NCBI GenBank assembly: GCA_023105745.1
Contig: JALGQZ010000013.1
Coordinates: 24,940,605-25,004,604, forward strand
Length of the DNA stretch: 64,000 nucleotides
Origin: Austropuccinia psidii
Lineage: Eukaryota; Basidiomycota; Pucciniomycetes; Pucciniales; Sphaerophragmiaceae
Direction of reading: 5' to 3'
Positions 5,847 to 61,765 of the stretch are shown piece after piece (position 1 is the stretch's first letter; each line of letters opens with the position of its first letter). The position numbers and the translations under genes were made by a program. A model generated the notes under the pieces. It was not told where the DNA came from and did no database searches. It saw nothing but the letters and a program-made list of their open reading frames with translations.

Positions 5847-7283
5847 TGTCAGGCTGAGTCTATGATAAAGGTGTATAAGAGTATTTACAAGCTTTAACTA
5901 TGACTGTGACACGGTAAAAATAATTTTAAAGAGGATATAATTGATAATAAAAGTTTTAATTTAAGAATTTAAAGGGCTTTACTATAGAAATATAGTGGTG
6001 GTGAGCGCTGTTGAAAGCCCTGGGTGCAGCTTTACCTGTTGGATTACAATAATAAAGACTACAATACTTTAAATTAAGAGTATACCTGATTATTAACCAA
6101 GAGTAAAACTGTTTTTGACAGTTTACTACGTAGGTTATTCAAGAGCAGGATGAAGAAGCAATTCTGGCAGTGAAAAGCCTCCTTTTTATCCTGAAATGGG
6201 GTGGCAAGGGTGCTAGACCTTTCCACGTAGAGGAAGTGAAGATTTTTTCACTCTCTAGTACTGGCTTGTGGTTTGCAAACAGCCTGTATAACCTGTATTG
6301 GGCTCAGATGTGGTTTTGAAACCACATCTGGGCAGTTTTCACCAATACAGGGTGAAAATTTTCATCTGGGGACCTCACAGCCTGATTCTGACGTGTATGA
6401 CGCGTAGAATGCTGTACAGAAACTGTATGGGACCCCAGTATTGACTGAAATATGAGGTATTGAAGCAAAAACATGCTCCTTCGTCTGTTGACACCTCATA
6501 TTCATGATTATGGGGTGTTATCCCATGGTAAGGCTGTATATGACAGCTGGTGGGATTTTGACCTTAAAATGGTCATAACTCTGTCAGTTTTTGAGATATC
6601 AAGCAAAACGTTGGTTCATTGAATAGCTCTATATGAGCTCTACACAATGGTACCCAACTTGACATGGTTATCATTAAATATGACAAAGTTATCCCATGTA
6701 CAAGTATTTTTGTACATTGGCGTGGTTTGGGCAAAAAGCTGTATTAAGCTTGTTTGGCCAATACCTTCTGTTGTAGTTGAGTTATGGGGAAATGGATGAC
6801 ACCATCAGATAGCCCTGATTGTGCTCTTTCCAAAAAGACCCCACTTTAAGTATCTCACACTAAAACTGTAAAAGTTAGATGAGAGGTGAATGTTTGTTCA
6901 CCCTTATTTGGTCTGAATTTGACCATAACTCAAGTAATACTGGTGCTAGCTCAGTTTGGCTAGTACCATTCGATAGCCCTGGCTTAGAGCTTCATTTTGA
7001 ATACCCATTTGATGGGGTTAAGCCTCTCCTTCTAGATTTTAGATGAGAGGTGAAAATTAAGGTTTATGCTCAGCAATAACTTTGAGCAGGAATAACTTTG
7101 TTATTTCTTGTCCTATGGTGATGGGACTTATATTTTCAGGAAGAGGTGAGTTTCCTCTTTCTTTTGATACCTTTTGAGCTAATTTGGCTCAGTTCCATGT
7201 TTTGGTGGTATTTTGGCTATACCATTGGTTTATGGTATTTTGGCTGTCATGCTTGTGCTCTGGTTTTGAGTCACAGGCTGACA
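5847..7283 (-). repeat. Element B 3' LTR (left copy)
   Basis: 1437 bp, the same length as the right copy. It contains a nested inverted repeat at 6292-6351 (10-bp outer arms, 12-bp inner arms) that is conserved in all B-type LTRs here. The plus-strand end of the LTR reads as an outward-facing hydrophobic open frame (from ATG 7146). Confidence 0.95.
6292..6351 (-). repeat. Conserved double-stem inverted repeat in B-type LTR
   Basis: Outer arms CCTGTATTGG (6292-6301) and CCAATACAGG (6342-6351) enclose inner arms CAGATGTGGTTT (6305-6316) and AAACCACATCTG (6319-6330). Equivalents occur at 14550-14609, about 46877-46936, 55132-55190, 44895-44955 and 62820-62881. Both stems could form in RNA. Confidence 0.85.
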
Positions 7284-7295
7284 TACCCTCCCTCT
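7284..7295 (-). promoter_or_regulatory. Polypurine tract of element B
   Basis: On the minus strand AGAGGGAGGGTA directly abuts the 3' LTR start (TGTCAG). This is the plus-strand DNA primer position of LTR retrotransposons. The same tract is at 47869-47880 in element H. Confidence 0.85.
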
Positions 7296-7307
7296 AAAAA
7301 AGGCTCA

Positions 7308-8564
7308 TCATTGATGAGACTGTTCAGTCCTCCTAGAGGCTCTGAATCTCCTCAAATGAAGGTTCCCATCTGGTATGGCATCCTCTGCCAACCATTTGTC
7401 TTTGTCAGCTGTCTGGTTTTTGAATCTGACTAGGTATTGTCTCTGATCCTTTCCATTAAGTCTGATTTTTCTGGCCCTGATGATTTTACTCACAGTTCCA
7501 GGAGAGTCTTCTACTTCCACTATTTCTGGTGGAGTGATGTTCTTCTTCCTGGAGGGGAATTTATCCTCCTCTGTTTGGAAGTATGGCTTGACCAGGCTCA
7601 CTGGAAAGACTGGGTGTTTCCTAGAAAACTCCTCAGTGAGCTTGACTTCTACTGCATTCTTCCCTATCAACTTAATGATAGTGAAGGGCCCTACAAATGA
7701 GTCTCTCATTTTCTTGGGTCCTTTGAGATTGTTAAAGTTCAGTGTAGACACTAACACCTGGTCCCCTTCCCTGAAGTCAGGTTCCATATGTGATTTGTCC
7801 CACCTCTGCTTGTTGTACTCTTTGGCCTCTGCTATGCATTTGGCAGCAGTATCACAGGCTTTCTTCCACATATCATGGAAGTCTTTGGCTGTGGGGTGGA
7901 TGGTCAGAAGATTTTTCTTCAAGTGATCCACAGGTAACAGGGGATTCCACCCTTTCTCTACCAGTGCAGGTGTTTTTCCTGTGGTAGAGTGCTGGCTTGT
8001 ATTATAAGCCAGTTGGACTGCTGGTAAGAGGGTGACCCAATCATGGGTATATCCCTCATGGTCCCTGTATTCCATGCCATAGGCACAGAACCTCCTGAGG
8101 ATGTCCTCCATTGTTTGGATCATCCTCTCAGCTAGGCCATCTGTTTGTGGATGGTAAGCTGTGGAAAAAGCAAGCTTGGTGCCAAGCATGTCATATAAAT
8201 TGGTCCAAAATTCAGATGTAAATTTTGGGTCCCTGTCACTAATTATGATCTTAGGGACTCCACAGGTGGATATGATGTTATTCCAAAATAACAGAGCAGT
8301 GTCCATGGCTGTGTCCTCTTTATGGCATGGTAGACATCTCATGCTCTTGCTGAACCTATCAACTATGATTAAGCAGGCATTGTAGTTTTCTTTGCCTCCT
8401 GGGACAAGTCCTGTGACCCAGTCCATGTTGATGGTTTCCCATGGGTGTTTGGGTTCTTCTATGTGTTGAAGCAACCCATATTTCTTCCCATATTTTCTAT
8501 TTGCCTTTTGGCATCTTTCACAAGTGTTGATGTATTCACTCAACTCTTGCTCCCACTTGGGCCA
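7308..8564 (-). pseudogene. pol: Element B Pol, integrase core and chromodomain (downstream of an in-frame TAG)
   Basis: This continues the gag-pol frame after a single TAG codon (8567-8565) and is otherwise uninterrupted. It contains the zinc-domain CxxC (CERCQK), then the integrase core with catalytic D in INMDWVTG (about 8425), D in ISDRDPKF (about 8235) and E in DGLAERMIQ (about 8130). It also has a GPF-type module ([13 protein letters not shown]) and a C-terminal chromodomain-like segment with YLVRFKN and DKWLAEDAI. Element H has TGG (Trp) in place of the TAG, so the stop is a G-to-A change private to this copy. Without readthrough, integrase is not made from this copy. Confidence 0.93.
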
Positions 8565-11500
8565 CTAAGCTGTGCTTGCTACCCTCTCCTTAGTCCTGTC
8601 CTCACTCATGTGTCCCATGTAGGGGCAGTCATGGCATTCCTGCAGGATTAAAGAGATGTGGTCTCTGTCTATCACTGTGAGTGCACTGGTGTGCTTGTCT
8701 CTGTGATAAATCAGGCCATCTATAAGGAAGAATTTATTGTCCTTATAGGCCCTCAACCAGGGTTCCTCCAGCTGGGTTTCCAGTTCTGGGCTCCTGTATT
8801 TCTGTTGAAGGAGTTGGAGTAGTATGCTACACTGTTTGTGTTTAGCATAAGATTTCAGTACTGCATTGAAGAATTCATTATGCAGTTCTGAGGAACTTAT
8901 CCCTAGTATGGGGGTTTCTGTCCCTTCTGAATCAGTGTTTCCACTGTCAAGGGTACCACTCCCTGGTGCCCATTCAGAGAATCTGAAGTTCTTCTTCCTA
9001 TCTATTTCCATGAAATGGATAGGAATTTTTGCAGCAACTTCAGGGTCATAAGCTGGATTGCTTTTGACATTGTCCAGTGGCCATCTGCTAAGGCCATCTG
9101 CATTGGTATGGCTTTTACCTTCTTTGTATATGATGGTCATGTTCCCTCTATACTCCTGGATGGCTATTTGCCATCTCAGCATGTGTCTATTAGTAGTCTT
9201 CATGTTTAGTAAAGACTTCAAGGCTGTGCAGTCTGTGTAGACTTCAAAGACTGCACCCTCCAAATAATAATGGAGTTTTTCTAGAGCCCAGACTAGACAT
9301 AGACATTCTGTCTGGGTGGCCCCATACCTGGCTTCTGAATCTTTCAGCTGCCTGGAGATGTAACATATTACACCTTCTCTTGGTTCACCATTCACAATTT
9401 GTCTTTGGTGAAGGGCTGCTCCCAAGCCTTGGCTACATGCTGCATCTATATATAACTTGAATGGTAGTTCAAAGTCAGGCAAGATGAGCACAGGTGCATT
9501 TGTGAGTTCATATTTGATCCTCTCATATGCATCCCTCCTTTCCTTGGTTATTTCAAAAACTACATCCTTTGAGCATAACTTGTATAAACTACTAGTTATG
9601 TGAGCAAAATTTTTGATGTGGTTTCTATAGTAGCTAGCAAATCCAAGGAAAGATTGCATCTCTTTGATGTTCTTTGGTACTGGCTTTTGCAGTACTGCTG
9701 CTACTTTGTTCTGGTCAATTGCCAGACTAAGGCCTGAGACTTTGTGTCCTAGAGCTAGTAGCTCTTGTTGGCCAAAATTACACTTTTTAAGTGAAATTTT
9801 TTGATTGATGGGTGTAAATTTACTTAGCACTCTGTCTATGTATTGTACATGGTCTTCCCATGTCTCTGAGTATATAATGATATCATCAATATACACTACC
9901 ATCCAGCCTTCCATTATTTCTTCTTGAAATATGGTGTCCATCATCCTTTGGAAGTGGGCTGGTGCATTCTTGATGCCAAATGGCATCCTAGTGTACTCAT
10001 ATATGCCCATATGGCATATAATTCTGAGTAATTTCATGGAGTTTGGTTTAACTCCATTTTGGTGGAAGCCCTTCATACAATCCATCTTGGTTATGTATTT
10101 GGCTTTGGCCAATTTATCCAAGGCATGAGGTATCCTTGGTATAGGATACCTGTCTGCTTTTGTGTAGTTGTTCAGGGCTCTGAAGTCTCCACACAGTCTA
10201 GACTTGCCATCATGCCAGGTGATTAGGACAGGAGTGGTGATTTCCACTATTTCATTATGTCCAATCTTCCTAATGACATCCATGTCCAGGAGTTCATTGA
10301 TATGTTTCTCAATCTCTTTCCTGGTCTCCAGACTTGCTGGGTAAGGAGGTCTCCTTAACATGGGTGGATAAGGCCTTTCTACATCCAGATATAGTTCTAT
10401 ATCATAGCCTTTGATCTTGCCTAATGGTTCTTCACCAATGGCAAATGCTGGTCTATTCTTCCTCAGCATCTTCAGTAAACTTAGCTTTTGTTTACTGGTG
10501 AGGGTAGTGCTAAACTGTCCCTCTCTGAATTCTTTCAGAAGTTCTTCCAGTGGGTCCTGAGAAGATATCTGGTATATATCAAGAGAAAATTTCTTTTCCT
10601 TGTTAGTACCAATGGTAATATGCCTATTTTTACTATTGTAAATATCTATGCCATACATCCTCTGGTAATCTGTTCCCAGTAAAAACCCTTGGATATGGGC
10701 ATCTTCAAGCACTACAAACTCTGGGTTGAGTCTGATATTACCTTTTCTGTGGGGTATAATTATCTCTTTGATAATTGTCCCAATAGAGGTCATCTTTCCA
10801 GATGCACTCTTAAAGTTCTTTGCCCTGGTGGGCAAGAGTTCTTTTTCCCAGTTTGGGAAGTGGTTATCCAGATAGTTTCTGGCCACTATGGAGCAGTGTG
10901 CTCCACTGTCAATGATCAATGGGTGCTGAGCATTGTCAATACATACAGTCATTTTTGTGGCTGTTCCATTTATGTATGCCATTCCTTTGGTTGGTGTAAC
11001 CAAGAATGTTTGTGCATCTTGTGTATGTTTACACAAGTTTTTGTTGGCAGTGTCTTGTGGCATGCCTGCTTCCAACTGTATATCCTGGATTTCTAGTGGG
11101 GTTTCCTCTTGGTATTCCACTAGAAATTCCTCTCTTGGGTCTTGCTCTTCATCAGATGGTTCTCTGATGGCATCACCCATAGAGTCTGATTCAGAATCCT
11201 CTGTTGGAGGTTCTTCTTCAGGGACTTTTTCTATAGCATAGACTTTCTTCTTTGCTTTTGGACAGTTGTTGGCATAGTGGTCTGTTGAACCACAATTGTG
11301 ACAAGAGTTCTTCTTCTTTGCCACTTCTGCCACTCTTTCTCTGGGTTTGTCTTTAAACTCTACCCTGAAAGGTTGTTTCTCTTTGAAACTATTGCTTCTA
11401 TATGGGGTGAATTTCCCTATATTAGTCCTTTTCCTTATGTCTTGTAAGGTATTGGCTATATCATCTAGAGTGCAATTTTGGTTGCATCTGCACTTTACTG

Positions 11501-13163
11501 CATGCTCTAGTTCTCCTGGAAGTTGTGTCAGAAGTTTATGATTCCTCATTTGAATGTTCATTTGAGGATCAATGGCTTTAAGTCTTCTAGACTGTCTAAG
11601 ACACCACTCATATGGATCTTTGTCCACAGAGTATTTGTCATTTTCAAATGACATGGTCTTTTGCCATATCCAAGTTCCATTACTGTACTTTTGGATTATT
11701 TGACTCTTCCACCATGGCCAATTTCTTCTTCCATGGATTTCTTTCATTTCAGTGTACCATATACTTGCATGACTTTTAAATGCAGTGTTCAGTCTAGCAG
11801 TGATCCAGTAATCTGGTATGCTTGGTACATCAATGAAGAGTCCATCAATATAATCTATGAGTTCCATATGATCATATTCTCCTGATCCAGAGAATTTGGG
11901 CCAGCTTGAGGCCTCAGGAAGCTGTTTCAAGGCTTCCTTCTCTGAATAAGACATGCCATCTCCATCCTGGTATTGTGATGGAGATCTTGCCTTATTCAAC
12001 AACATGGCATCTGGTTTGATGTCATTTGGTTGATATGGATTCTCCATAGCTTGGCCTTGTGGTTGGGGCTTCAAGCTATGGTAGGCATCAAACAATTTGT
12101 TGATGTCTTGGTTCAGACACTCCCTGTCCCTGCTGCTATGGTGTTGTTCTTCAGAGACTTGATTCAGTCTCTTGTTGGTTTCTTCAGAGGCTTTGCTCAG
12201 TTGAGCATATCCTTCCTGAAGGTTTTTAACTATCTGCTCCAATGAGGCTTGAGTTTTTCTCATCCTCTCTTGGGCAGCTGCAAATTCTGTAGCCAGATTT
12301 GCAGATTGCTCAGCATATTGGGACATTTGTAACCACAGTGTGTCACTGTTGATGTTACTCTCAGATGTGATAATGTTATTTTCAGTCTGAGTGGGGGTAA
12401 TGTTTCTATTACTAGGACTACTGATTCTAGAGTGGTTTACCACTACTTCTGGTTCTTGTGTACTTCTTTTACCAAATCTCACAGCTTCTGGATCATGGGG
12501 TCTGACTCTTTCCTCCTCTGGTTGAAGGAGGCTTTGTTCTTGCCCTTGTTTCCTTGTCTTCTCCTGGAAACTTCCTGGAATTGTGAAGAATGGTGACTCT
12601 TGGCCACTGATCTGCTGGTTTCTGAATGGTGTGAAGCCACTGGAGAGCTGATTTGGCTGGCTCCTTGTGAACCTGAAGGAATCTGAGTAGGCCCTGTCTG
12701 GGTTAACTGTTCTTCTATGGCTTGGATAGTGGCTTGGTTCTCCCTTATCCTCTGTGCCCTTGCCTCCAGGAGTCTGTGCTGCCTGGTAGGATTCCAACCC
12801 TTGGTGATTACCATAAGGTCTTTGAAGTCTATCTCTTTGAGACAGATCTTCTGGCAACTTGATCCCAGTTCTGCCCAGTGAGTTGCTAGGTTGAACCTCT
12901 TGTTGTCCATGCTCCATTGAAACAAATCTTTGAGGAGTTGGTGGATTTGAAGAACTTGATCCATATCCTTCCAGTCCTCTGGTTTGAGGTTTCTGTTGAA
13001 TTGGAGTGTGAATGGCAAGGTTGATATTATCTCCCTCATTGTTTTGCCATCCACCACTGTGTCCAATGTGTCTTCTTTCAGGTCTTCTGGTTCTAGACAT
13101 TCCTGCTCTGTCCTCTGGCTGGTTCCTTTGGAAGCCAAGGTCTCTGAGGTGTGCAGGGGACAT
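8565..13163 (-). CDS. gag-pol: Element B Gag-Pol (Gag, zinc knuckle, protease, RT, RNase H, start of integrase)
   Basis: A 1532-codon frame. The ATG at 13163 lies inside the 68-nt second intron, so only RNA that keeps that intron makes Gag-Pol. Residues 1-228 are low-complexity and share their DNA with the accessory frame. Residues about 265-360 look coiled-coil. A gag capsid region lies around 390-600, the zinc knuckle [14 protein letters not shown] near 617-631, protease IIDSGAHCS near 747, RT palm aspartate KMDCMKGF near 1024, YIDD near 1088, RNase [16 protein letters not shown] near 1235 and [11 protein letters not shown] near 1308, and the integrase HH pair near 1508. It ends at a TAG where relatives have Trp. 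Gag and Pol are in one frame with no slippery site, unlike the A lineage. Confidence 0.94.
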
Positions 13164-14060
13164 ATCAGTGTTTGCAAGCAGTCAAAAACTTTATGTTCTT
13201 AGGGTATTTACCTTTGACTGTGCCTTGTACAAATTTGTTATCTGCTGATTTGGGCAGTTTGCCTTTGGAAGTTACAACTGGGTTAATAATTGTAATCTTC
13301 CCTGTACAAGTGGTTAAGGTTGGTTTACCTTGTATTGATGCAGAGTTTCGTGGTTTTCTACTTCTCTGAGTGGCTATTGGTGTCCACTTCTTGGCTGTAA
13401 TCAGGCCTTCACTAAGCCTTTTTCCTTTGCCCTTGCTGCCCTCTGGTTCAGAGGGTGTCACTGGTATGTTGGCCTGTGACTGGGTCTCAAGTGGTATGAA
13501 GTTTTCTTCCACTGAATCAAAACAGGAAAAAGAGGGCTTATGTCAGTTAAGACTTCTTACAAGGCTGGTTTTGCACGTCTAAGAATGGCCTCTGGGCTTG
13601 TATATTACTACAGTATGCCCCTGTATAATGACAGTGTAATTTGAATCAACAATTTCACGTCAGAATTACAGCTTTTGGTACCCTGTCACACTGTTTGTGT
13701 GCCAGTATCCCACAGATACACTTGTGGTTTTCAAGTGTATTCTGTATCAGTGGTTTAATATAAGTGTTATTGAGTCAACAATACACTTAATCCACGCCTC
13801 AACTGATGGTTTTTCAGTCAGAGGTGTCCTTATTCAGTCAAGAATACAGGACTTATTAGTGGCCAATGTGTTTTTATATACAAAACACGCCAAAAATGAT
13901 TGTTTTCAGTGGGTATTAGCCACGTGAAAAATACTCTTTTTATTGTATGAGTATATAAAGAAGAATAAAAATATATAAAATATATTTTTTAAAGTGGAAA
14001 TTACGCCTAAAAAAGATAAAACAATGGTTAATAAGATATAAAAAAGAGAAAAAACTCACT
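12479..14060 (-). CDS. Element B accessory protein: three-exon gene overlapping gag in another frame (predicted)
   Basis: Predicted exons: leader ending 14060, exon 2 13511-13212, exon 3 13143-12479. Intron 1 (14059-13512, GTGAGT...TTCAG) joins A to TG, creating ATG GAA GAA. Intron 2 (13211-13144, GTAAAT...CTCAG, 68 nt) joins the exons in frame and removes the Gag-Pol AUG. The coding length is 966 nt (321 residues plus stop). The product has a basic, Pro/Thr-rich N-terminus. Its middle looks helical ([28 protein letters not shown]), followed by a probable coiled coil ([16 protein letters not shown]) and a Ser/Lys/Arg-rich tail. Exon 3 lies over Gag codons 1-228. H keeps every splice signal and the assembled ATG; G keeps the open frame in pieces. 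The function is unknown; nucleic-acid or Gag binding is a guess from the charge. Confidence 0.72.
13144..13211 (-). other. Second intron of element B, containing the Gag-Pol start codon
   Basis: The 68-nt candidate runs AAAG|GTAAAT to CACCTCAG|AGACC with ACTGAT as a possible branch site. The accessory exon-2 frame, if unspliced, stops at TGA 13167-13165, and the Gag-Pol ATG begins one base later (TGATATG), a termination-reinitiation layout. Element H has the same 68-nt intron (53795-53728). G has lost the AG acceptor. Confidence 0.72.
13512..14059 (-). other. Leader intron of element B (about 548 nt)
   Basis: Donor ACAA|GTGAGT and acceptor TTGATTCAG|TGG, preceded by a pyrimidine-rich stretch. 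H has ATAAA|GTAAGT to TTTCAG|TGG (54644-54096, 549 nt) and G has AAAA|GTGAGT to ATTCAG|TTG (62334-61763). I see no other coding content in these bases. They are AT-rich, with many short stops. Confidence 0.68.
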
Positions 14061-14085
14061 TGTAAGGTCCAAAAAGTAAAAAAAA

Positions 14086-14104
14086 CACGGCCAGGCCCCC
14101 AAAA
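14086..14104 (-). promoter_or_regulatory. Candidate tRNA primer-binding site of element B
   Basis: On the minus strand the LTR end CTGACA is followed by TTT and then TGGGGGCCTGGCCGTG. It begins TGG, as expected for a complement of a tRNA CCA end. H is identical and G differs at two bases in the first 16. I could not assign the tRNA, and no complementary stretch was seen inside the LTR. Confidence 0.55.
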
Positions 14105-15541
14105 TGTCAGGCTGAGTCTACGATAAAGGTGTATAAGAGTATTTACAAGCTTTAACTATGACTGTGACACGGTAAAAATAATTTTAAAGAGGATATAATT
14201 GATAATAAAAGTTTTAATTTAAGAATTTAAAGGGCTTTACTATAGAAATATAGTGGTGGTGAGCGCTGTTGAAAGCCCTGGGTGCAGCTTTACCTGTTGG
14301 ATTACAATAATAAAGACTACAATACTTTAAATTAAGAGTATACCTGATTATTAACCAAGAGTAAAACTGTTTTTGACAGTTTACTACGTAGGTTATTCAA
14401 GAGCAGGATGAAGAAGCAATTCTGGCAGTGAAAAGCCTCCTTTTTATCCTGAAATGGGGTGGAAAGGGTGCTAGACCTTTCCACGTAGAGGAAGTGAAGA
14501 TTTTTTCACTCTCTAGTACTGGCTTGTGGTTTGCAAACAGCCTGTATAACCTGTATTGGGCTCAGATGTGGTTTTGAAACCACATCTGGGCAGTTTTCAC
14601 CAATACAGGGTGAAAATTTTCATCTGGGGACCTCACAGCCTGATTCTGACGTGTATGACGCGTAGAATGCTGTACAGAAACTGTATGGGACCCCAGTATT
14701 GACTGACATATGAGGTATTGAAGCAAAAACATGCTCCTTCGTCTGTTGACACCTCATATTCATGATTATGGGGTGTTATCCCATGGTAAGGCTGTATATG
14801 ACAGCTGGTGGGATTTTGACCTTAAAATGGTCATAACTCTGTCAGTTTTTGAGATATCAAGCAAAACGTTGGTTCATTGAATATCTCTATATGAGCTCTA
14901 CACAATGGTACCCAACTTGACATGGTTATCATTAAATATGACAAAGTTATCCCATGTACAAGTATTTTTGTACATTGGCGTGGTTTGGGCAAAAAGCTGT
15001 ATTAAGCTTGTTTGGCCAATAACTTCTGTTGTAGTTGAGTTATGGGGAAATGGATGACACCATCAGATAGCCCTGATTGTGCTCTTTCCAAAAAGACCCC
15101 ACTTTAAGTATCTCACACTAAAGCTGTAAAAGTTAGATGAGAGGTGAATGTTTGTTCACCCTTATTTGGTCTGAATTTGACCATAACTCAAGTAATACTG
15201 GTGCTAGCTCAGTTTGGCTAGTACCATTCGATAGCCCTGGCTTAGAGCTTCATTTTGAATACCCATTTGATGGGGTTAAGCCTCTCCTTCTAGATTTTAG
15301 ATGAGAGGTGAAAATTAAGGTTTATGCTCAGCAATAACTTTGAGCAGGAATAACTTTGTTATTTCTTGTCCTATGGTGATGGGACTTATATTTTCAGGAA
15401 GAGGTGAGTTTCCTCTTTCTTTTGATACCTTTTGAGCTAATTTGGCTCAGTTCCATGTTTTGGTGGTATTTTGGCTATACCATTGGTTTATGGTATTTTG
15501 GCTGTCATGCTTGTGCTCTGGTTTTGAGTCACAGGCTGACA
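14105..15541 (-). repeat. Element B 5' LTR (right copy)
   Basis: 1437 bp, equal in length to the left copy, with about six substitutions by eye. It should drive transcription leftward on the minus strand. It ends CTGACA at 15541, followed by the GATTT duplication. Confidence 0.95.
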
Positions 15542-45904: not shown

Positions 45905-46438
45905 TCATGGATGATACTTTTCAGTCCTCCTAGAGGCCCTGAATCCCCTTAGATGAATTCTCTCATCTGGTATGGCATCCTCTGCAAACCATTTGTCTTT
46001 ATCTTCTGTCTGGTTTTTAAATCTGACCCAGTATTGCCTTTGGTCTTTACCATTCAGTCTAATCTTCTTGGCCTTGATGATTTTCTTCACAGGCCCAGGG
46101 GAGTCTTCCACTTTCACTATTTCTGGAGGAGTGTGTTTTTCCTTCCTGGAGGGGAACGTTTCCTCCTCCATCTGGAAGTATGGCTTAATTAAACTTGCTG
46201 GGAATACTGGGTGTTTCCTAGAAAGTTCCTCTGTGAGTTGGACCTCCACTTCATTTTTCCCTATCATCTTAATGATAGTGAAGGGCCCTACAAATGAGTC
46301 TCTCATTTTCTTTGGTCCCTTAATATTCTTGAAGTTAAGTGTAGACACTAGTACTTGGTTCCCTTCTTTAAAGTCAGGTTCCATGTATGATTTGTCCCAC
46401 CTCTGTTTGTTGTATTCTTTCTCCTTAGCTATGCATTT
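45905..46438 (-). pseudogene. pol: Element G integrase C-terminus and chromodomain-like end
   Basis: Open minus-strand frame ending at 45905: [16 protein letters not shown] module, then [16 protein letters not shown] and DKWFAEDAIPD, parallel to element B. Cut at 46438 by element H; the rest of integrase is at 56128 onward. Confidence 0.9.
46434..46438 (+). repeat. Target-site duplication of element H (left copy, CATTT)
   Basis: CATTT precedes TGTCAGG at 46439 and is repeated at 56123-56127 after CTGACA. Confidence 0.95.
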
Positions 46439-47868
46439 TGTCAGGATGAAACTATGAAAGAGTGGTAATGTAGGCTATTTACAACTCAAACTATGTTTGT
46501 GACACGGTAAAAATGCTTTAAGAAGGTTTTGAGATGATTAAGAATAAATTTAAAGGGCTTTACTATAGTGGTTATAGTGGTGGTGAGCGCTGTTGAAAGC
46601 CCTGGGTGCAGCTTTATCTGTTGGGTTACAATAATAAAAGACTACAATAATTAAAACTTATAATTATACCTGATTATTAACCAAGAGTAAAACTGTTTTT
46701 GACAGTTTACTATGTAGGTTATTCAAGAGCAGGATGAGGAAAGGCTTTTGGCTGTGAAAAACCCTCCTTTTATCCTGAAATTGAGGTGGAAAGGCTGCTA
46801 GACCTTTCCATGTAGAGGAAGTGAAGATTTTTCACTCTCTATGACAGGCTTGTGGTTTGCAAACAGCCTGTATGCTCTGTATTGGGCTCAGATGTGGTTT
46901 TGAAACCACATCTTGGTGGTTTTCACCAATACAGGGTGAAATTTTTCATCTGGGGACCTCACAGCCTGATTCTGACGTGTATGACGCGTAGAATGCTGTA
47001 CAGAAACTGTATGGGACCCCAGTATTGACTGACATATGAGGTATTGAAGTAAAAACATGCTTCTTCGTCTATTTGACACCTCATATTCATGGTTAGGGAT
47101 ATTATCCCATGGTAAGGCTGTATATGACAGCAGGTGGGATTTTGACCTTAAAATGGTCATAACTCTGTCAGTTTTTGAGATATCAAGCTCAAAAATTGGT
47201 TCATTGAATAGCTCTGTATGAGCTCTACACAATGGTACCCAACTTGACATGGTTATCATTAAATATGACAAAGTTATCCCATGTACAAGTATTTTTGTAC
47301 ATTGGCGTGGTTTGGGCAAAAGCTGTATTAAGCTTGTTTGGCCAATACCTTCTGTTGTAGTTGAGCTATGAGGAAATGGATAGCACCATCAGATAGCCCT
47401 GATTGTGCTCTTTTCAAAAAGACCCCACTTTAAGTATCTCACACTGAAACTGTAAAAGTTAGATGAGAGGTGAATGTTTTGTTCACCCTTATTTGGTCTG
47501 AATTTGACCATAACTCAAGTAATACTGGTGCTAGCTCATTTTGGCTAGCACCATTAGATAGCCCTGGCTTGGAGCTTCATTTTTAATACCCATTTGATGG
47601 GGTTAAGCCTCTCCTTCTAGATTTTAGATGAGAGGTGAAAATTAAGGTTTATGCTCAGCAATAACTTTGGGCAGGAATAACTTTGTTATTTCTTGTCCTA
47701 TGGTGATGGTACTTATATTTTCCGGAAGAGGTGAGTTTCCTCTTTCCTTTGATACCTTTTGAGCTAATTTGGCTCAGCTCCATGTTTTGGTGGTATTTTG
47801 GCTATACCATTGGTTTATGGTATTTTGGCTGTCATGCTTGTGCTCTGGTTTTGAGTCACAGGCTGACA
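46439..47868 (-). repeat. Element H 3' LTR
   Basis: B-type, begins TGTCAGGATG and ends CTGACA. Followed by the polypurine complement TACCCTCCCTCT at 47869-47880. Contains the conserved double-stem repeat. Confidence 0.94.
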
Positions 47869-47892
47869 TACCCTCCCTCTAAAAAAGGCTCA

Positions 47893-50800
47893 TCATAGAT
47901 GAGACTGTTCAGTCCTCCTAGAGGCTCTGAATCTCCTTAAATGAAGGTTTCCATCTGGTATGGCATCCTCTGCCAACCATTTGTCTTTGTCAGCTGTCTG
48001 GTTCTTGAACCTGACTAGATATTGTCTCTGATCCTTCCCATTAAGTCTGATTTTTCTGGCCCTGATGATTTTATTCACAGGTCCAGGAGAGTCTTCTACT
48101 TCCACTATTTCTGGTGGAGTGATGTTTTTCTTCCTGGAGGGGAATTTATCCTCCTCTGTTTGGAAGTATGGTTTGACCAGGCTCACTGGAAAGACTGGGT
48201 GTTTCCTAGAAACCTCCTCAGTGAGCTTGACCTCTACTGCATTCTTCCCTATCAACTTAATGATAGTGAAGGGCCCTACAAATGAGTCTCTCATTTTCTT
48301 AGGTCCTTTGAGATTGTTAAAGTTCAGTGTAGACACTAACACCTGGTCCCCTTCCTTGAAGTCAGGTTCCATATGTGATTTGTCCCACCTTTGCTTGTTA
48401 TACTCTTTGGCCTCAGCTATGCATTTGGCAGCAGTATCACAGGCTTTCTTCCACATATCATGGAAGTCTTTGGCTGTGGGCGGGATGGTCAGAAGATTTT
48501 TCTTCAAGTGATCCACAGGTAACAGGTGATTCCACCCTTTCTCTACCAGTGCAGGTGTTTTCCTGTGGTAGAGTGCTGGCTTGTATTTTAAGCCAGTTGG
48601 ACTGCTGGTAAGAGGGTGACCCAATCATGGGTGTATCCCTCATGGTCCTTGTATTCCATGCCATAGGCACAGAACCTCCTGAGGATGTCCTCCATTGTTT
48701 GGATCATCCTCTCAGCTAGGCCATCTGTTTGTGGATGGTAAGCTGTGGAAAAAGCAAGCTTGGTGCCAAGCATGTCATATAAATTGGTCCAAAATTCAGA
48801 TGTGAATTTTGGGTCCCTGTCACTAATTATGATCTTAGGGACTCCACAGGTGGATATGATGTTATTCCAAAATAACAGAGCAGTGTCCATGGCTGTGTCC
48901 TCTTTATGGCATGGTAGACATCTTGTGCTCTTTCTGAACCTATCAGCTATGATTAAGCAGGCATTGTAGTTTCCTTTGCCTCCTGGGACAAGTCCTGTGA
49001 CCCAGTCCATGTTGATGGTTTCCCATGGGTGTTTGGGTTCTTCTATGTGTTGAAGCAACCCATATTTCTTCCCATGTTTTCTATTTGCCTTTTGGCATCT
49101 TTCACAAGTGTTGATGTATTCACTCAACTCTTGCTCCCACTTGGGCCACCAAGCTGTGCTTGCTACCCTCTCTTTAGTCCTGTCCTCACTCATGTGTCCC
49201 ATATAGGGGCAGTCATGGCATTCCTGCAGGATTAAAGAGATGTGGTCTCTGTCTATCACTGTGAGTGCACTGGTGTGCTTTTCTCTGTGATAAATCAGGC
49301 CATCTATAAGGAAGAATTCATTGTCCTTATAGGCCCTCAACCAGGGTTCCTCCAGCTGGGTTTCCGGTTCTGGGCTCCTGTATTTTTGTTGAAGGAGTTG
49401 GAGTAGTATGCTACACTGTTTGTGTTTAGCATGAGATTTCAGTACTGCATTGAAAAATTCATTGTGCAGTTCTGAGGAACTTATTCCCAGTATGGGGGTT
49501 TCTGTCCCTTCTGAATCAGTGTTTCCACTGTCAAGGGTACCACTCCCTGGTGCCCATTCAGAGAATCTGAAGTTCTTCTTCCTATTTATTTCCATAAAAT
49601 GGATAGGAATTTTTGCTGCAACTTCAGGGTCATAAGCTGGATTGCTTTTGACATTGTCCAGTGGCCATCTGCTAAGGCCATCTGCATTGGTATGGCTTTT
49701 ACCTTCCTTGTATATGATGGTCATGTTCCCTCTATACTCCTGGATGGCTATTTGCCATCTCAGCATGTGTCTATTAGTAGTCTTCATGTTTAGTAAAGAC
49801 TTCAAGGCTGTGCAGTCTGTGTAGACTTCAAAGACTGCACCCTCCAAATAATAATGGAGTTTTTCTAGAGCCCAGACTAGACATAGACATTCTGCCTGGG
49901 TGGCCCCATACCTGGCTTCTGAATCTTTCAGCTTCCTGGAGATGTAACATATTACACCTTCTCTTGGTTCACCATCCACAATTTGTCTTTGGTGAAGGGC
50001 TGCTCCCAAGCCTTGGCTGCATGCTGCATCTATATATAACTTGAATGGTAGTTCAAAGTCAGGCAAGATGAGCACAGGTGCATTTGTGAGTTCATATTTG
50101 ATCCTCTCATATGCATCCCTCCTTTCCTTGGTTATTTCAAAAACTACATCCTTTGAGCATAACTTGTATAAACTACTAGTTATGTGGGCAAAGTTTTTGA
50201 TGTAGTTTCTATAGTAGCTAGCAAATCAAAGGAAAGATTGCATCTCTTTGATGTTCTTTGGTACTGGCTTTTGCAGTACTGCTGGTACTTTGTTCTGGTC
50301 AATTGCCAGACCAAGGCCTGAGACTTTGTGTCCTAGAGCTAGTAGCTCTTGTTGGCCAAAATTACACTTTTTAAGTGAAATTTTCAGATTGATGGGTGTA
50401 CATTTACTTAGCACTCTGTCTATGTATTGTACATGGTCTTCCCATGTCTCTGAGTATTTAATGATATCATCAATATATACTACCATCCAGCCTTCCATTA
50501 TTTCTTCTTGAAATATGGTATCCATCATCCTTTGGAAGTGGGCTGGTGCATTCTTGATGCCAAATGGCATCCTGGTGTACTCATATATGCCCATATGGCA
50601 TATTATTCTGAGCAATTTCATGGAGTTTGGTTTAACTCCATTTTGGTGGAAGCCTTTCATACAAGCCATCTTGGTTATGTATTTGGCTTTGGCCAGCTTA
50701 TCCAAGGCATGAGGTATCCTTGGTATAGGGTACCTGTCTGCTTTTGTGTAGTTATTCAGGGCTCTGAAGTCTCCACACAATCTAGACTTGCCATCATGCC

Positions 50801-53747
50801 AGGTGATCAGGACAGGAGTGGTGATTTCCACTATTTCATTATGTCCAATCTTCCTGATGACATCCATGTCCAGGAGTTCATTGATGTGTGTTTCAATTTC
50901 TTTCCTGGTTTCCAGACTTGCTGGATAAGGAGGTATCCTCAGCATGGGTGGATAAGTTCTTTCCACATCCAGATATAGTTCTATATCATGGCCTTTAATC
51001 TTGCCTAGTGGTTCTTCACCAATGGAAAATGCTGGTCTGTTCTTCCTCAGCATCTTCAGTAAACTTAATTTTTGTTTACTGGTGAGGGTAGTGCTAAACT
51101 GTCCCTCCTTGAATTCCTTCAAGAGTTCTTCTAGTGGATCCTGTGAAGATATGTGGTATATATCAAGTGAAAATTTCTTTTCCTTGTTGGTATCAATGGT
51201 AATGTGCCTGTTTTTACTGTTGTAAATATCTATGCCATACATCCTCTGGTAATCTGTTCCCAGTAAAAACCCTTGGATGTGGGCATCTTCAAGCACTACA
51301 AACTCTGGGTTGTGTCTGATATTACCCTTCCTGTGGGGTATAATTATCTCTTTGATAATTGTCCCAATGGAAATCATCTTCCCTGATGCACTTTTGAAGT
51401 TCTTTGCCTTAGTGGGCAAAAGCTGTTTTTCCCAGTTTGGGAAGTGGTTATCCAGATAATTTCTGGCCACTATGGAGCAATGTGCTCCACTGTCAATGAT
51501 CAGTGGGTGCTGAGCATTGTCAATACATACAGTCATTTTTGTGGCTGTTCCATGTATATATGCCATTCCTTTGGTTGGTGTAACCAGGAATGTTTGTGCA
51601 TCTTGTGTGTGTTTGCACAAGTTCTTGTTGGCAGTGTCCTGTGGCATGCCTGCTTCCAACTGTATATCCTGGATTTCCAATGGGGTTTCCTCTTGGTATT
51701 CCACTAGAAATTCCTCTCTTGGGTCTTGATCATCATCAGATGGTTCTCTGATGGCATCTCCCATAGAGTCTGATTCAGAATCCTCTGTTGGAGGTTCTTC
51801 TTCAGGGACTTTTTCTATAGCATAGACTTTTTTCTTTGCCTTTGGACAGTTGTTGGCATAGTGGTCTGTTGAACCACAATTGTGACAAGAATTCTTCTTC
51901 CTTGCCACTTCTGTCACTCTTTCTCTGGGTTTGTCTTTAAACTCCACCCTGAAAGGTTGTTTCTCCTTGAAACTACTGCTTCTATATGGTGTGAATTTCC
52001 CTATATTAGTCCTTTTCCTTATTTCTTGTAAGGTATTGGCTATGTCATCTAGAGTGCAATTTTGGTTGCATCTGCATTTCACTGCATGCTCTAATTCTCC
52101 TGGCAGTTGTGTCAGAAGTTTGTGATTCCTCATCTGGATGTTCATCTGAGGATCAATGGCTTTAAGTCTTTTAGACTTTCTGAGACACCACTCATATGGG
52201 TATTTGTCCACAGAGTATTTGTCATTTTCAAATGACATGGTCTTTTGCCATATCCAAGTTCCATTACTGTACTTTTGGATTATTTGACTCTTCCACCATG
52301 GCCAGTTTCTTCTGCCATGGATTTCTTTCATTTCTGTTTACCATATACTTGCATGACCTTTAAATGCAGTACTCAGTCTAGCAGTAATCCAGTAATCTGG
52401 TATGCTGGGTACATCAATGAAGAGTCCATCAATATAATCTATGAGTTCCATATGATCATATTCTCCTGATCCAGAGAATTTGGGCCAGCTTGAGGCCTCA
52501 GGAAGCTGTTTTAGGGCTTCCTTTTCTGAATAAGACATGCCATCTCCATCCTGGTATTGTGATGGAGATCTTGTCTTATTCAACAACATGGCATCTGGTT
52601 TGATGTCATCTGGTTGATATGGATTATTCATAGCTTGGCCTTGTGGGTTAGGCTTCAAGATATGGTAGGCATTAAACAATTTGTTAATGTCTTGATCCAG
52701 ACACTCCCTGTCCCTTGTGCTGTGGTGTTGTTCTTCAAAGACTTGGTTCAGTCTTTTGTTGGATTCTTCAGAGGCTTTGCTCAGTTGAGCATATCCTTCT
52801 TGAAGATTCTTAACTATTTGTTCCAAGGAGGCTTGAGTTTGTCTCATCCTCTCTTGGCTAGATTTAATTTCTGAAAATTGCTTTGCAAATTGTTCAGCAT
52901 ATTGGGACACTTGTAACCACAGTGTATCACTGTTGATGTTACTCTCAGATGTGACAATGTCATTTTCAGTCTGAGTGGGGGTAATGTTTCTATTACTAGG
53001 ACTACTGATTCTAGAGTGGTTTACAACTACTTCTGGTTCTTGTGTACTTCCTTTACCAAATCTAACAGCTTCTGGATCATGGGGTCTTACTCTTTCCTCC
53101 TCTGGTTGAAGGAGGTTTTGTTCTTGCCCTTGTTTCCTTGTCTTCTCCTGGAAACTTCCTGGAATTGTGAAGAATGGTGACTCTTGGCCACTGATCTGCT
53201 GGTTTCTGAATGGTGTGAAGCCACTGGAGAGCTGATTTGGCCTGCTCCTTGTGAACCTGAAGGAATCTGAGTAGGCCCTGTCTGGGTCAACTGTTCTTCT
53301 ATAGCTAGGATAGTGGCTTGATTCTCCCTTATCCTCTGTGCCCTTGCCTCCAGGAGTCTGTGCTGCCTGGTTGGATTCCAACCCTTGGTGATTACCATAA
53401 GGTCTTTGAAGTCTATCTCTTTGAGACAGATCTTCCGGCAACTTGATCCCAGTTCTGCCCAGTGAGTTGCTAGGTTGAACCTCTTGTTGTCCATGCTCCA
53501 TTGAAATAAATCTTTGAGGAGTTGGTGGATCTGAAGAGCTTGATCCATATCCTTCCAGTCCTCTGGTTTGAGGTTTCTGTTGAATTGGAGTGTGAATGGA
53601 AAGGTTTATATTATCTCCCTCATTGTTTTGCCATCCACCACTGTGTCCAGGGTGTCCTCTTTCAGGTCTTCTGGTTCTGGACAATCCTCCTCTATCCTCT
53701 GGCTGGTTCCTTTGGAAGCCAAGGTCTCTGAGGTATACAGGGGACAT
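47893..53747 (-). pseudogene. gag-pol: Element H Gag-Pol (four or more lesions)
   Basis: Colinear with element B Gag-Pol from ATG 53747. Lesions: TAA after HASIW near 52333 (Tyr in B); TGA at 50226-50228 in QSFLGF (Gly in B); one base missing near 48560 (TTTTCC for TTTTTCC), which shifts integrase; palm Asp of RT changed to Ala (KMACMKGF near 50668). Kept: zinc knuckle [14 protein letters not shown], protease DSGAHCS, YIDD, RNase H, integrase HHCC with the Trp that is a stop in B, the DDE residues and the chromodomain-like end. Inactive. The TAA at SIW* is shared with element G. Confidence 0.92.
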
Positions 53748-54645
53748 ATCAGTGTCTGCAAACAGTAAACAACTTTATGTTATTAGGGTATTTACCTTTG
53801 ACTGTGCCTTGTACAAATTTATTGTCTGCTGATTTGGGCAGTTTGCCTTTGGAAGTTACAACTGGGTTAATAATTGTAATCTTCCCTGTACAAGTGGTTA
53901 AGGTTGGTTTACCTTGTATTGATGCAGAGTTTTGTGGTTTTCTACTTCTCTGAGTGGCTATTGGTGTCCACTTCTTGGCTGTGATGAGGCCTTCACTGTG
54001 CCTCTTTCCTTTGCCCTTGCTGCCCTCTGGTTCTGAGGGTGTCACTGGTGTGTTGGCCTGTGACTGGGTCTCAAGTGGGATGTAATTTTCTTCCACTGAA
54101 ATCAAAGCAGGAAAAGGAGGGCTTATGTCAGTTAAGACTTCTCAAAAAATGCTGGTTTTGCACGTCTGAGATTGGCCTCTGGGCTTGTATGTTACTACAA
54201 TGTGCCCTGTATAATGACAGTGTAATTGAATCAACAATTCCACGTCAGAATTACAGCTTTTTGGTACCCTGTCACACTGTTTGTGTGTCAGTATCCCTCA
54301 GAAACATTTGTGGTTTTCAAGTGTATTCTGTAAAAGTGGTGTTGTATAAGTGTTATTGAGTTAACAATACACTTAACCACGCCTCAACTGATGGTTTTTC
54401 AGTCAGAGGTGTCCTTATTCAGTCAAGAATACAGGACTTATTGATGGCTTATGTGTTTTTATATACAAAACATGCCAAAAATAGTTATATTCAGTGGGTA
54501 TTAACCACGTGAATAATACTCTTATAATATGAGTATATATATAAAAAAGGATAAATATATATAAAATATATATTTAAATAGAGAAATTACGCCTAAAAAA
54601 TATAAAACACTTATCAATAAGTCATAAAAAGAGAAAAGACTTACT
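53087..54645 (-). pseudogene. Element H accessory gene, splice signals intact, two nonsense codons
   Basis: Leader exon ends at A 54645. Intron 1 is 54644-54096 (549 nt, GTAAGT...TTTCAG); the junction A|TG again creates ATG GAA GAA AAT. Exon 2 is 54095-53796, intron 2 is 53795-53728 (68 nt, GTAAAT...CTCAG), then exon 3. In exon 3 a TCA-to-TAA change near 53608 (silent Ile in Gag) and another TAA at 53087 break the accessory frame. Between them 153 residues are open and differ from B at only about five positions. Confidence 0.65.
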
Positions 54646-54691
54646 TTATAAGGTCCAAAAAAAGGTTAAAAACACGGCCAGGCCCCCAAAA

Positions 54692-56122
54692 TGTCAGGAT
54701 GAAACTATGAAAGAGTGGTAATGTAGGCTATTTACAACTCAAACTATGTTTTTGACACGGTAAAAATGCTTTAAGAAGGTTTTGAGATGATTAAGAATAA
54801 ATTTAAAGGGCTTTACTATAGTGGTTATAGTGGTGGTGAGCGCTGTTGAAAGCCCTGGGTGCAGCTTTATCTGTTGGGTTACAATAATAAAAGACTACAA
54901 TAATTGAAACTTATAATTATACCTGATTATTAACCAAGAGTAAAACTGTTTTTGACAGTTTACTACGTAGGTTATTCAAGAGCAGGATGAGGAAAGGCTT
55001 TTGGCTGTGAAAAACCCTCCTTTTATCCTGAAATTGAGGTGGAAAGGCTGCTAGACCTTTCCATGTAGAGGAAGTGAAGATTTTTCACTCTCTATGACAG
55101 GCTTGTGGTTTGCAAACAGCCTGTATGCTCTGTATTGGGCTCAGATGTGGTTTTGAAACCACATCTTGGTGGTTTTCACCAATACAGGGTAAAATGTTTC
55201 ATCTGGGGACCTCACAGCCTGATTCTGACGTGTATGACGCGTAGAATGCTGTACAGAAACTGTATGGGACCCCAGTATTGACTGACATATGAGGTATTGA
55301 AGTAAAAACATGCTTCTTCGTCTATTTGACACCTCATATTCATGGTTATGGGATATTATCCCATGGTAAGGCTGTATATGACAGCAGGTGGGATTTTGAC
55401 CTTAAAATGGTCATAACTCTGTCAGTTTTTGAGATATCAAGCTCAAAAATTGGTTCATTGAATAGCTCTGTATGAGCTCTACACAATGGAACCCAACTTG
55501 ACATGGTTATCATTAAATATGACAAAGTTATCCCATGTACAAGTATTTTTTTACATTGGCGTGGTTTGGGCAAAAGCTGTATTAAGCTTGTTTGGCCAAT
55601 ACCTTCTGTTGTAGTTGAGCTATGAGGAAATGGATAGCACCATCAGATAGCCCTGATTGTGCTCTTTTCAAAAAGACCCCACTTTAAGTATCTCACACTA
55701 AAACTGTAAAAGTTAGATGAGAGGTGAATGTTTTGTTCACCCTTATTTGGTCTGAATTTGACCATAACTCAAGTAATACTGGTGCTAGCTCAGTTTGGCT
55801 AGCACCATTAGATAGCCCTGGCTTAGAGCTTCATTTTGAATACCCATTTGATGGGGTTAAGCCTCTCCTTCTAGATTCTAGATGGGAGGTGAAAATTAAG
55901 GTTTATGCTCAGCAATAACTTTGGGCAGGAATAACGTTGTTATTTCTTGTCCTATGGTGATGGGACTTATATTTTCAGAAAGATGTGAGTTTCTCCTTTC
56001 TTTTGATACCTTTTGAGCTAATTTGGCTCAGCTCCATGTTTTGGTGGTATTTTGGCTATACCATTGGTTTATGGTATTTTGGCTGTCATGCTTGTGCTCT
56101 GGTTTTGAGTCACAGGCTGACA
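54692..56122 (-). repeat. Element H 5' LTR
   Basis: 1431 bp, ending CTGACA at 56122 and followed by the CATTT duplication. The candidate primer site TGGGGGCCTGGCCGTG lies just inside (54673-54688, minus). Confidence 0.94.
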
Positions 56123-56127
56123 CATTT

Positions 56128-60702: not shown

Positions 60703-61765
60703 CTATTTATGGTTCTTGTGTACTTCTCTCACCAAGTCCAACAGCTTCTGGATCATTGGGTCTGACTCTTTCTGCCTTTGGTTGAAAGAGGTCTTGTTTT
60801 TGCCCTTGTATCCTTGTCTTCTCTTGGAAACTTCCTGGGATTGTGAAGAATGGTGACTCTTGGCCACTGATCTTTTGGTTCCTGAATGGTTTGAAGCTAC
60901 TGGAGAGCTGGTTTGGCCTACTCCTTGTGAGCCTGAAGAAATCTGAGTATGCCCTGTCTGGGTCAGCTGTTCTTCTATAGCTTGGATAGTGGCTTGATTC
61001 TCCCTTATCTTGTTTGCCCTCACCTCCAGGAGTCTGAACTGCCTGGTGGGATTCCAACCTTTGGTGATTACGATAAGGTTTTTGAAGTCTATTTATTTGA
61101 GAAATATCTTCTGGAAACTTTCTCCAAGTTCTTCCCAGTGGGATGCTAGGTTGAACCTCTTGTTGTCCATTATCCATTGAAAAAGGTCTTTGAGGAGTTG
61201 GTGAAGCTGAAGAACTTGATCCATATCCTTCCAGTCCTCTGGTTTGAGGTTTCTGTTAAACTGGAATGTGCATGGCAGAGTGGGTATTACTTCCCTCGAT
61301 TTCTTGCCATCCACCACTGTGTCCAAGGTTCCCTCCTCCAGGTATTCTGGTTCTGGACAAGCCCTCTCTGTCCTCTGGCTGGTTCCTTTGAGATCCAAGG
61401 TTTATGAGGTGTACAGGTGACATATCAGTGTTTGCAAGCAGTCAACAACTTAATTTTCTTAGGTTATTTACCTTTGACTGTTCCTTGTACAAATTTGTTG
61501 ACTACTGCTTTTGGCAATTTTCCTTTAGAGGTTACAACTGGGTTAATGATTGTAATCTTCCTTGTACAAGTGGTTAAGTCTGGTTTACCTTGTATTGATG
61601 CAGAGTTTTGTGGTTTTATACTCCTCTGAGTGGCAATTGGTGTCCACTTTTTAGCTGTGATAAGGCCTTCACTGTGCCTCTTCCCTTTTCCCTCTGGTTC
61701 TGAGGTTGTCACTGGTGTGTTGGTCTGTGACTGGGTCTCAAGTAGGATTAAGGTTTCTTCAACTG
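60703..61765 (-). pseudogene. Element G overlapping gag N-terminus / accessory gene remnant
   Basis: Both frames remain largely open. The accessory frame covers exon 2 (about 61762-61480, ETQSQTNTPVTTSEPEGK ... FVQGTVKGK) and exon 3 pieces 61398-61093 and 61023-60703, ending ...[20 protein letters not shown], a longer tail than in B. The gag frame is open 61177-60707. The intron 2 acceptor reads CTCAT instead of CTCAG and the exon 1/2 junction would give ATT rather than ATG, so the gene is dead. Confidence 0.7.

Follow-up and report, generated by a model that had tools for sequence, protein, structure and literature searches.

Element B, a Ty3/gypsy long terminal repeat (LTR) retrotransposon in the 64,000-nucleotide (nt) window of Austropuccinia psidii DNA analysed here, appears to belong to a family whose 5′ end encodes either of two products, depending on how the RNA is processed. 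We put the probability of this reading at roughly 75%, based on sequence comparison of B with two relatives in the window (element H, about 94% alike, and element G, about 81–83%), with near copies in the genome and with protein relatives. Under the proposed mechanism, unspliced genomic RNA, whose leader lacks an AUG, would be read as Gag-Pol; removal of two introns would eliminate the Gag-Pol AUG and build another AUG across the first junction, giving a basic accessory protein of ~333 residues. Removal of intron 1 alone would yield a 115-residue peptide ending at a TGA, and a restart at TGATATG could then provide an extra route to Gag-Pol. We infer that splicing occurs and is partial, and a real splice-switched accessory gene is the most likely explanation of the data. 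An initial annotation of this DNA had proposed an overlapping gene that is spliced in frame and excludes the Gag-Pol ATG, which is supported by the ratio of non-synonymous to synonymous substitution rates (dN/dS) and the codon-position bias of exon 1, by constraint on the accessory frame in the overlap with Gag, by simulations of stop codons in the Gag frame, by depletion of ATG in the leader, by conserved splice sites in near copies, and by protein relatives.

Layout of the predicted accessory gene

The accessory frame of B lies on the minus strand and joins base 14060 to 13511–13212 and 13143–12479, a total of 966 nt including the stop, encoding 321 residues; these coordinates and intron borders, already given in the initial annotation, were exact on recheck. 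The initiation codon is split, with its A at 14060 before a GTGAGT donor and its TG at 13511–13510 after a TTCAG acceptor, so that the accessory ATG is only present once intron 1 (14059–13512) has been removed. The 68-nt intron 2 (GTAAAT...CTCAG) does contain the Gag-Pol ATG, at 13163, as had been stated. It also contains, about 21 nt upstream of its AG, a CTGAT that matches CTRAY, the fungal branch consensus. The predicted parts are as follows.

14060..14104, minus strand: leader exon, post-LTR part; it ends in the A of the accessory ATG
13512..14059, minus strand: predicted intron 1 (GTGAGT...TTCAG); splice sites conserved in near copies, B–G divergence 0.32 versus 0.12 in exon 1
13212..13511, minus strand: accessory coding exon 1; dN/dS 0.14–0.23, third-position excess, open in B, H and G
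13144..13211, minus strand: predicted intron 2 (GTAAAT...CTCAG), 68 nt; contains the Gag-Pol ATG (13163) and the CTGAT branch-like site
13161..13168, minus strand: CTGATATG, combining in 8 nt the branch-like site, the exon-1-frame stop used if intron 2 is retained, and the Gag-Pol ATG; identical in B, H and G
12479..13143, minus strand: accessory coding exon 2 of B; overlaps Gag in a different frame, accessory dN/dS 0.24–0.42, 732 homologs of the joined protein
12443..12478, minus strand: the family's remaining exon 2, beyond the early stop of B; stop-free as far as 12446 in 36 of 38 near copies
53066..54096, minus strand: accessory gene in element H, with two early stops in the accessory frame
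60742..61763, minus strand: accessory gene in element G, decayed

The accessory stop of B, at 12481, comes 12 codons before the family stop at 12445, giving a family protein of ~333 residues. Exon 2 does overlap Gag, as first reported, but the range differs from the codons 1–228 given then: it covers Gag codons 7–229 in B, and 7 to about 240 in the family. Splice signals recur in H, which, in line with the initial annotation, retains all four splice sites and both ATGs. The Gag frame (13163–12446) contains 0, 0 and 2 stops in B, H and G, respectively, and the accessory frame (13141–12446) 1, 2 and 1, compared with 12, 14 and 13 in the third frame. Both frames of G are thus mostly open, as had been claimed, but its splicing signals are partly lost, since the intron 2 AG and the split ATG are gone.

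With intron 2 retained, the exon-1 frame stays open until a TGA lying a single base ahead of the Gag-Pol ATG (TGATATG), which would give a 115-residue peptide. Differences between B and G within intron 2 fall on third positions of the exon-1 frame in 6 of 7 cases (4 of 7 between B and H), as would be expected were the intron-retained form translated as well. Both products might arise through translation, from an RNA spliced at intron 1 only, on which ribosomes would make the exon-1 peptide of 115 residues and restart at the Gag-Pol ATG. The invariance of TGATATG in B, H and G and the openness of the exon-1 frame into intron 2 as far as that TGA are in line with such a restart, but it leaves the constraint on exon 2 in the accessory frame unexplained, and the splice sites of intron 2 are kept though it would not need them; we consider restart alone quite improbable.

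Exon 1, the leader and copies of the family

Near copies of B were sought in the genome (1,015,390,075 bases in 84 contigs), where 6559 first-look candidates led to 40 scored places and, after removal of B itself and one broken match, to 38 near copies. The donor GT of intron 1 is preceded by A in 38/38 and its acceptor AG followed by TG in 37/38, while intron 2 keeps its GT in 37/38, its AG in 38/38 and the Gag ATG in 38/38. Exon 1 is open in 35 of the 38 copies and the accessory frame of exon 2 is open to 12446 in 36; the Gag frame is stop-free in 33.

Exon 1 behaves as coding sequence. Comparison of B with G shows differences at 174 of 538 sites (0.32) of intron 1 versus 36 of 291 (0.12) of exon 1, where they are distributed 6/9/21 over codon positions 1/2/3 (P 0.002). 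Its dN/dS is 0.14 for B–H, 0.21 for B–G and 0.23 for H–G, and B, H and G are all free of stops in the accessory frame, compared with 4–8 in the other two frames. Among B and the 38 near copies, widely shared exon-1 variants are 8 silent to 3 changing, compared with 14 to 24 for singletons. Taken together, these patterns indicate that exon 1 is under purifying selection.

The leader points to the same arrangement from the side of Gag-Pol. The 941 nt lying between the LTR and the Gag ATG contain no ATG in B, compared with a mean of 13.5 in dinucleotide shuffles, none of 400 of which was as low; the same stretch has 3 ATGs in H (0/400 shuffles as low) and 7 in G (1/400). Near copies carry none in 20 cases, one in 15 and two in 3. 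The last ATG within the LTR of B lies 481 nt before the LTR end, leaving an ATG-free run of ~1.4 kb upstream of the Gag-Pol ATG (the transcription start being unmapped), and Gag-Pol would for this reason be expected from unspliced RNA. For comparison, a raw count without shuffles gives 9 ATGs over the ~1 kb that separates the LTR of another Ty3/gypsy element in the window from its first long open reading frame (ORF), the start likewise being unmapped. Since there is no ATG in the exon 1 or leader of B, exon 1 could be translated only from the splice-made ATG or from one far up the LTR. A ribosome scanning unspliced RNA would require ATG depletion of this kind.

Protein searches returned 732 relatives of the joined accessory protein and 1558 of Gag-N, and the best 120 of each were examined. 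All 120 accessory relatives are annotated as Austropuccinia psidii MF-1, and the initial Met aligned to residue 1 in 114 of the 120 Gag-N relatives. Met accounts for 44 of 9013 exon-1 residues in the 120 accessory relatives, a smaller share than in exon 2 (454 of 23513). The junction is covered by 95 of the 120 accessory rows, in which spliced readings are commonest (20 GTVKETLASK, 11 GTVKETLVSK), while at least two MF-1 relatives (P0020, P0023) read on into intron 2. The MF-1 proteins are no independent proof of splicing, because they are gene predictions, some of them reading into intron 2. Long Gag-Pol proteins were rejected as a source of the Gag extension, with 1 match among 1581 candidates, compared with the 1558 of the stand-alone query. 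Searches of viral contigs and plasmids found no accessory relatives. The N-terminal residues of P0004, P0006, P0013 and P0015 resemble a conserved patch of intron 1 (13660–13760, minus strand), which hints either at another choice of first exon or at an error of gene prediction.

Selection and structure in the overlapping frames

In the overlap, dN/dS is 0.24–0.42 for the accessory frame versus 0.52–0.87 for Gag, each computed ignoring the other frame, the accessory frame being the more constrained. Substitutions between B and H that are silent in the accessory frame only number 10.5 (5.9 expected), those silent in Gag only 9 (6.2 expected), and those changing both proteins 5 (12.6 expected); B–G substitutions again show an excess of accessory-silent changes (38.5 vs 23.3 expected). 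Binomial tests for the accessory frame give P 0.003 (B–H), 0.0002 (B–G) and 0.001 (H–G). In B and the 38 near copies, the 118 overlap singletons have shares close to neutral, 32 of them being silent in the accessory frame. Of the 7 variants present in at least 3 of the 39 copies, 6 are accessory-silent and none changes both proteins (P 0.003 against singletons for the accessory frame, 1.0 for Gag). Constraint on the accessory frame thus appears firm between B, H and G, and suggestive among young copies.

We also simulated stop codons in B and H, keeping one protein and redrawing synonymous codons in two ways, with 2000 draws. When the accessory protein was kept, the Gag frame was stop-free in 0/2000 draws for both elements and both ways of drawing, with an average of 8–16 stops. 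In the reverse simulation, the accessory frame was as open as observed in 7 and 902 of 2000 draws for B by the two ways, and in 103 and 1427 for H. By this measure, the lack of stops in the overlapping part of the Gag frame exceeds what chance would give.

An AlphaFold model of the accessory relative P0007 (95 sequences) has a mean predicted local distance difference test score (pLDDT) of 56, with helices at 158–252 and C-terminal helices at 310–335. In a Gag-N relative (60 sequences), residues 1–266, reaching slightly beyond the overlap, are predicted to be disordered, followed by a 74-residue helix at 267–340. The coiled coil that the initial annotation had read into the accessory protein is not supported: the model of the relative has a helical part at 158–252 and a low mean pLDDT, and the clear long helix is in Gag, directly downstream of the overlap. 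A profile search of sequences against the PDB gave no match, nor did Foldseek with the low-confidence accessory model. Constraint on Gag in the overlap would be mostly to stay open, suiting a disordered segment, with weak amino-acid constraint.

Among the 120 listed Gag-N relatives, identity to B is 69–87% over Gag residues 1–260, 65% over 261–280, 43–54% over 281–320 and 79% over 321–340, and Gag conservation dips soon after the end of the second frame. The long-helix segment (12200–12323) diverges fast (B–G 0.35), unlike the overlap before it and residues 321–340 after it. The dip in conservation, the stronger constraint on the accessory frame and the predicted disorder of residues 1–266 in the Gag-N relative suggest, without proving it, that an accessory exon came first and that the Gag extension arose over it by overprinting; the idea that the accessory frame may be the older one, raised in the initial annotation, is in this way supported only indirectly.

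The same data bear on two other explanations. The accessory gene might be real while the Gag frame is untranslated in the overlap, Gag starting downstream, for example at Met 280, which lies in the long helix or immediately ahead of it, the upstream gene then being followed by gag-pol. The Gag-frame dN/dS of 0.52–0.87, the disorder predicted for the relative, the change to Gag in 6 of 7 widely shared variants and a non-significant B–G test would all suit a downstream start. We nevertheless regard it as unlikely, since the Gag frame is stop-free in B, in H and in 33 of 38 near copies where simulation gives an average of 8–16 stops, the ATG-free leader runs straight to the ATG at 13163, and Gag-changing substitutions fall short between B and H (P 0.016). 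The accessory frame might, on the other hand, be a decaying relic of a former N-terminal part of Gag-Pol, left after a frame change moved Gag. Its holding the better-folded part while Gag has the disordered one, its early stops in B, H and G, and the lack of constraint in variants shared by two copies are as expected of a relic, but dN/dS in exon 1 (0.14–0.23) and in the accessory overlap (0.24–0.42) is below that of the Gag frame, the frame reaches 12446 without a stop in 36 of the 38 near copies, and the splice sites survive in nearly all of these copies, which makes decay very improbable.

A number of observations weigh against the splice-switched gene that we prefer. The accessory frame has early stops in all three elements, one each in B and G and two in H. 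Among near copies, 3 of 38 have a stop in exon 1, 2 in the accessory frame of exon 2 and 5 in Gag; the intron-1 AG is lost in one copy and the intron-2 GT in one; and two exon-1 stop variants are each common to two copies. These copies were picked by likeness to B and are not a fair sample, so that their shared openness is partly descent. Given the Gag protein, openness of the accessory frame is unsurprising under local codon permutation (B 902/2000, H 1427/2000). On the side of Gag, the B–G class silent in Gag only shows no excess (23.0 vs 24.1 expected), binomial tests are weak (P 0.016 for B–H, 0.16 for B–G, 0.03 for H–G), and 6 of the 7 widely shared variants alter Gag. Variants in exactly two copies (n=13) resemble singletons, with 10 changing the accessory protein and 8 both proteins, and pooling them with the widely shared ones gives P 0.12 against singletons for the accessory frame and 0.76 for Gag. 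The Gag-N query behind the 1558 relatives extends about 100 residues past the overlap. Pfam searches with the accessory frame of the window and 95 relatives gave scattered weak matches only (best E 0.0047) and no recognised domain, and a pattern search found no export signal at the C-terminus of the B protein or of four relatives.

Element B, the possible role of its predicted accessory protein and known systems

Element B is a Ty3/gypsy (Metaviridae) LTR retrotransposon by its LTR pair, its target-site duplication and the order of its pol domains. Pfam matches above cut-off run RVT_1, RT_RNaseH, then rve, which is the Ty3/gypsy order; the zinc knuckle (CCHC) falls slightly below cut-off, the protease match is weak, and Chromo at the integrase C-terminus, the chromodomain that would mark the chromovirus lineage, scores 14.7 bits against a cut-off of 25.1. 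GATTT flanks the element on both sides as a 5-bp target-site duplication.

14105..15541, minus strand: 5′ LTR of element B; 99.6% identity to 5847–7283
14094..14101, minus strand: TGGGGGCC, probable primer-binding site read from sequence, lying 3 nt from the 5′ LTR on its internal side
8565..13163, minus strand: Gag-Pol ORF, 1532 codons; Gag extension, long-helix segment, CCHC, protease, reverse transcriptase, RNase H and start of integrase
7308..8564, minus strand: remainder of integrase in the same frame, past one in-frame stop
5847..7283, minus strand: 3′ LTR of element B, the pair of 14105–15541; a purine-rich tract adjoins at about 7284–7296

The pol of B is split at 8565 by that single in-frame stop, within the zinc-binding part of integrase, after which the frame resumes to 7308. 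A near-identical primer-binding site in Cer1 is named tRNA-Pro in the available text of PMC10309623. Insertions are nested, B (5847–15541) lying inside another Ty3/gypsy element (GATTT) and H (46435–56127) inside G (CATTT).

Folding z-scores against dinucleotide-shuffle controls are negative along B (7041–14060, minus strand) in every one of 26 sense-strand windows, each of 270 nt, with a mean of −3.83 (weakest −1.82) versus −3.08 for antisense, and are less negative elsewhere (−1.18 and −0.90 in two other elements, −0.95 at 21.6–29 kb). Intron 1 (z −4.8) was rejected as a special RNA element, since every B window is negative with a mean of −3.83. Might the B family carry ordered RNA structure along the whole element?

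As for what the accessory protein does, a role as regulator of unspliced RNA, like Rev or CERV, is our tentative first guess, made because the genomic RNA has to avoid being spliced and to exit the nucleus still carrying its introns. The protein of B is basic (isoelectric point 9.6; 11.4 for the tail), and an Arg-rich tail pattern occurs in 43 of 120 listed relatives, many of which are incomplete at that end; export-signal patterns match near residues 136–140 in B and elsewhere in the four relatives. About as likely, though again less likely than not, is that the protein partners Gag, in a self-limiting or structural way, or suppresses silencing, and is not an RNA-export factor; Ty1 p22 reportedly limits Ty1, a basic, partly helical protein without known domain would suit such a part, and we have no specific counterpoint to it. 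Slightly less probable is the full scheme of an independent retrovirus-like regulatory layer in fungal Ty3/gypsy elements, in which a Rev-like protein with a splice-made start would be overprinted by Gag residues 1–240, CTGATATG would serve as branch site, stop and Gag-Pol start, and the 68-nt intron would be the switch between regulator and capsid.

If true, the proposed gene would add fungal Ty3/gypsy elements to those that carry spliced, overlapping accessory genes, here with a compact switch in which splicing decides between regulator and Gag-Pol. It would bear on how LTR elements outside animals export unspliced RNA, on how new frames arise over old ones, and on the drivers of expansion in a gigabase rust genome, that of Austropuccinia psidii being described as gigabase-sized in the available text of PMC8063080. 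We found no report of a spliced gene overlapping gag in a fungal Ty3/gypsy element among the listed open-access titles and starts of abstracts, a scope that leaves out most subscription journals, and the main text of a rust transposable-element paper (PMC12210899) has zero occurrences of 'splic' and 'gag'. The initial annotation likewise named no description for fungal Ty3/gypsy elements. Spliced accessory genes in Ty3/gypsy elements as such have a precedent in CERV.

BARE is a Ty1/copia element. So is EVADE (PMC8892269), and both BARE1 (PMC3735527) and EVADE make more than one RNA, including a subgenomic spliced or shortened mRNA that favours Gag; unlike in the B family, this RNA serves Gag itself, and the abstracts do not mention an overlapping accessory gene. 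Extra ORFs of LTR retrotransposons, mostly of unknown function as in the B family, include ORF0 of Retrosat2, RIRE3 and RIRE8, which lies upstream of gag-pol in Retrosat2 (PMC3485330), those of Ogre elements (PMC6431247), and the ORF3s of bdelloid rotifers, stated to be expressed from spliced messages (PMC5408684); the passages available describe no overlap with gag.

Compared by description only, and across host kingdoms, the B family resembles Rev of human immunodeficiency virus type 1 and other spliced retroviral regulators in its predicted spliced RNA, overlapping frames, use of unspliced RNA for Gag-Pol and basic protein. The closest design is that of CERV, the spliced-RNA accessory protein of the Caenorhabditis elegans Ty3/gypsy element Cer1, which the available text describes as required for export of genomic RNA (PMC10309623). 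The two share a spliced mRNA of a Ty3/gypsy element, predicted for the B family and known for CERV, together with an exon read in a frame other than that of gag and the unspliced form as genomic RNA; unlike CERV, the B-family protein would be wholly 5′-encoded, with its second exon over gag in a non-Gag frame and its ATG made by splicing. The likeness drawn here is one of description, and the role of CERV stands at an experimental level in its source, whereas that of the B-family protein is proposed by analogy. Spliced accessory genes are already known in Ty3/gypsy elements through CERV, and the B-family design would be a new variant thereof.

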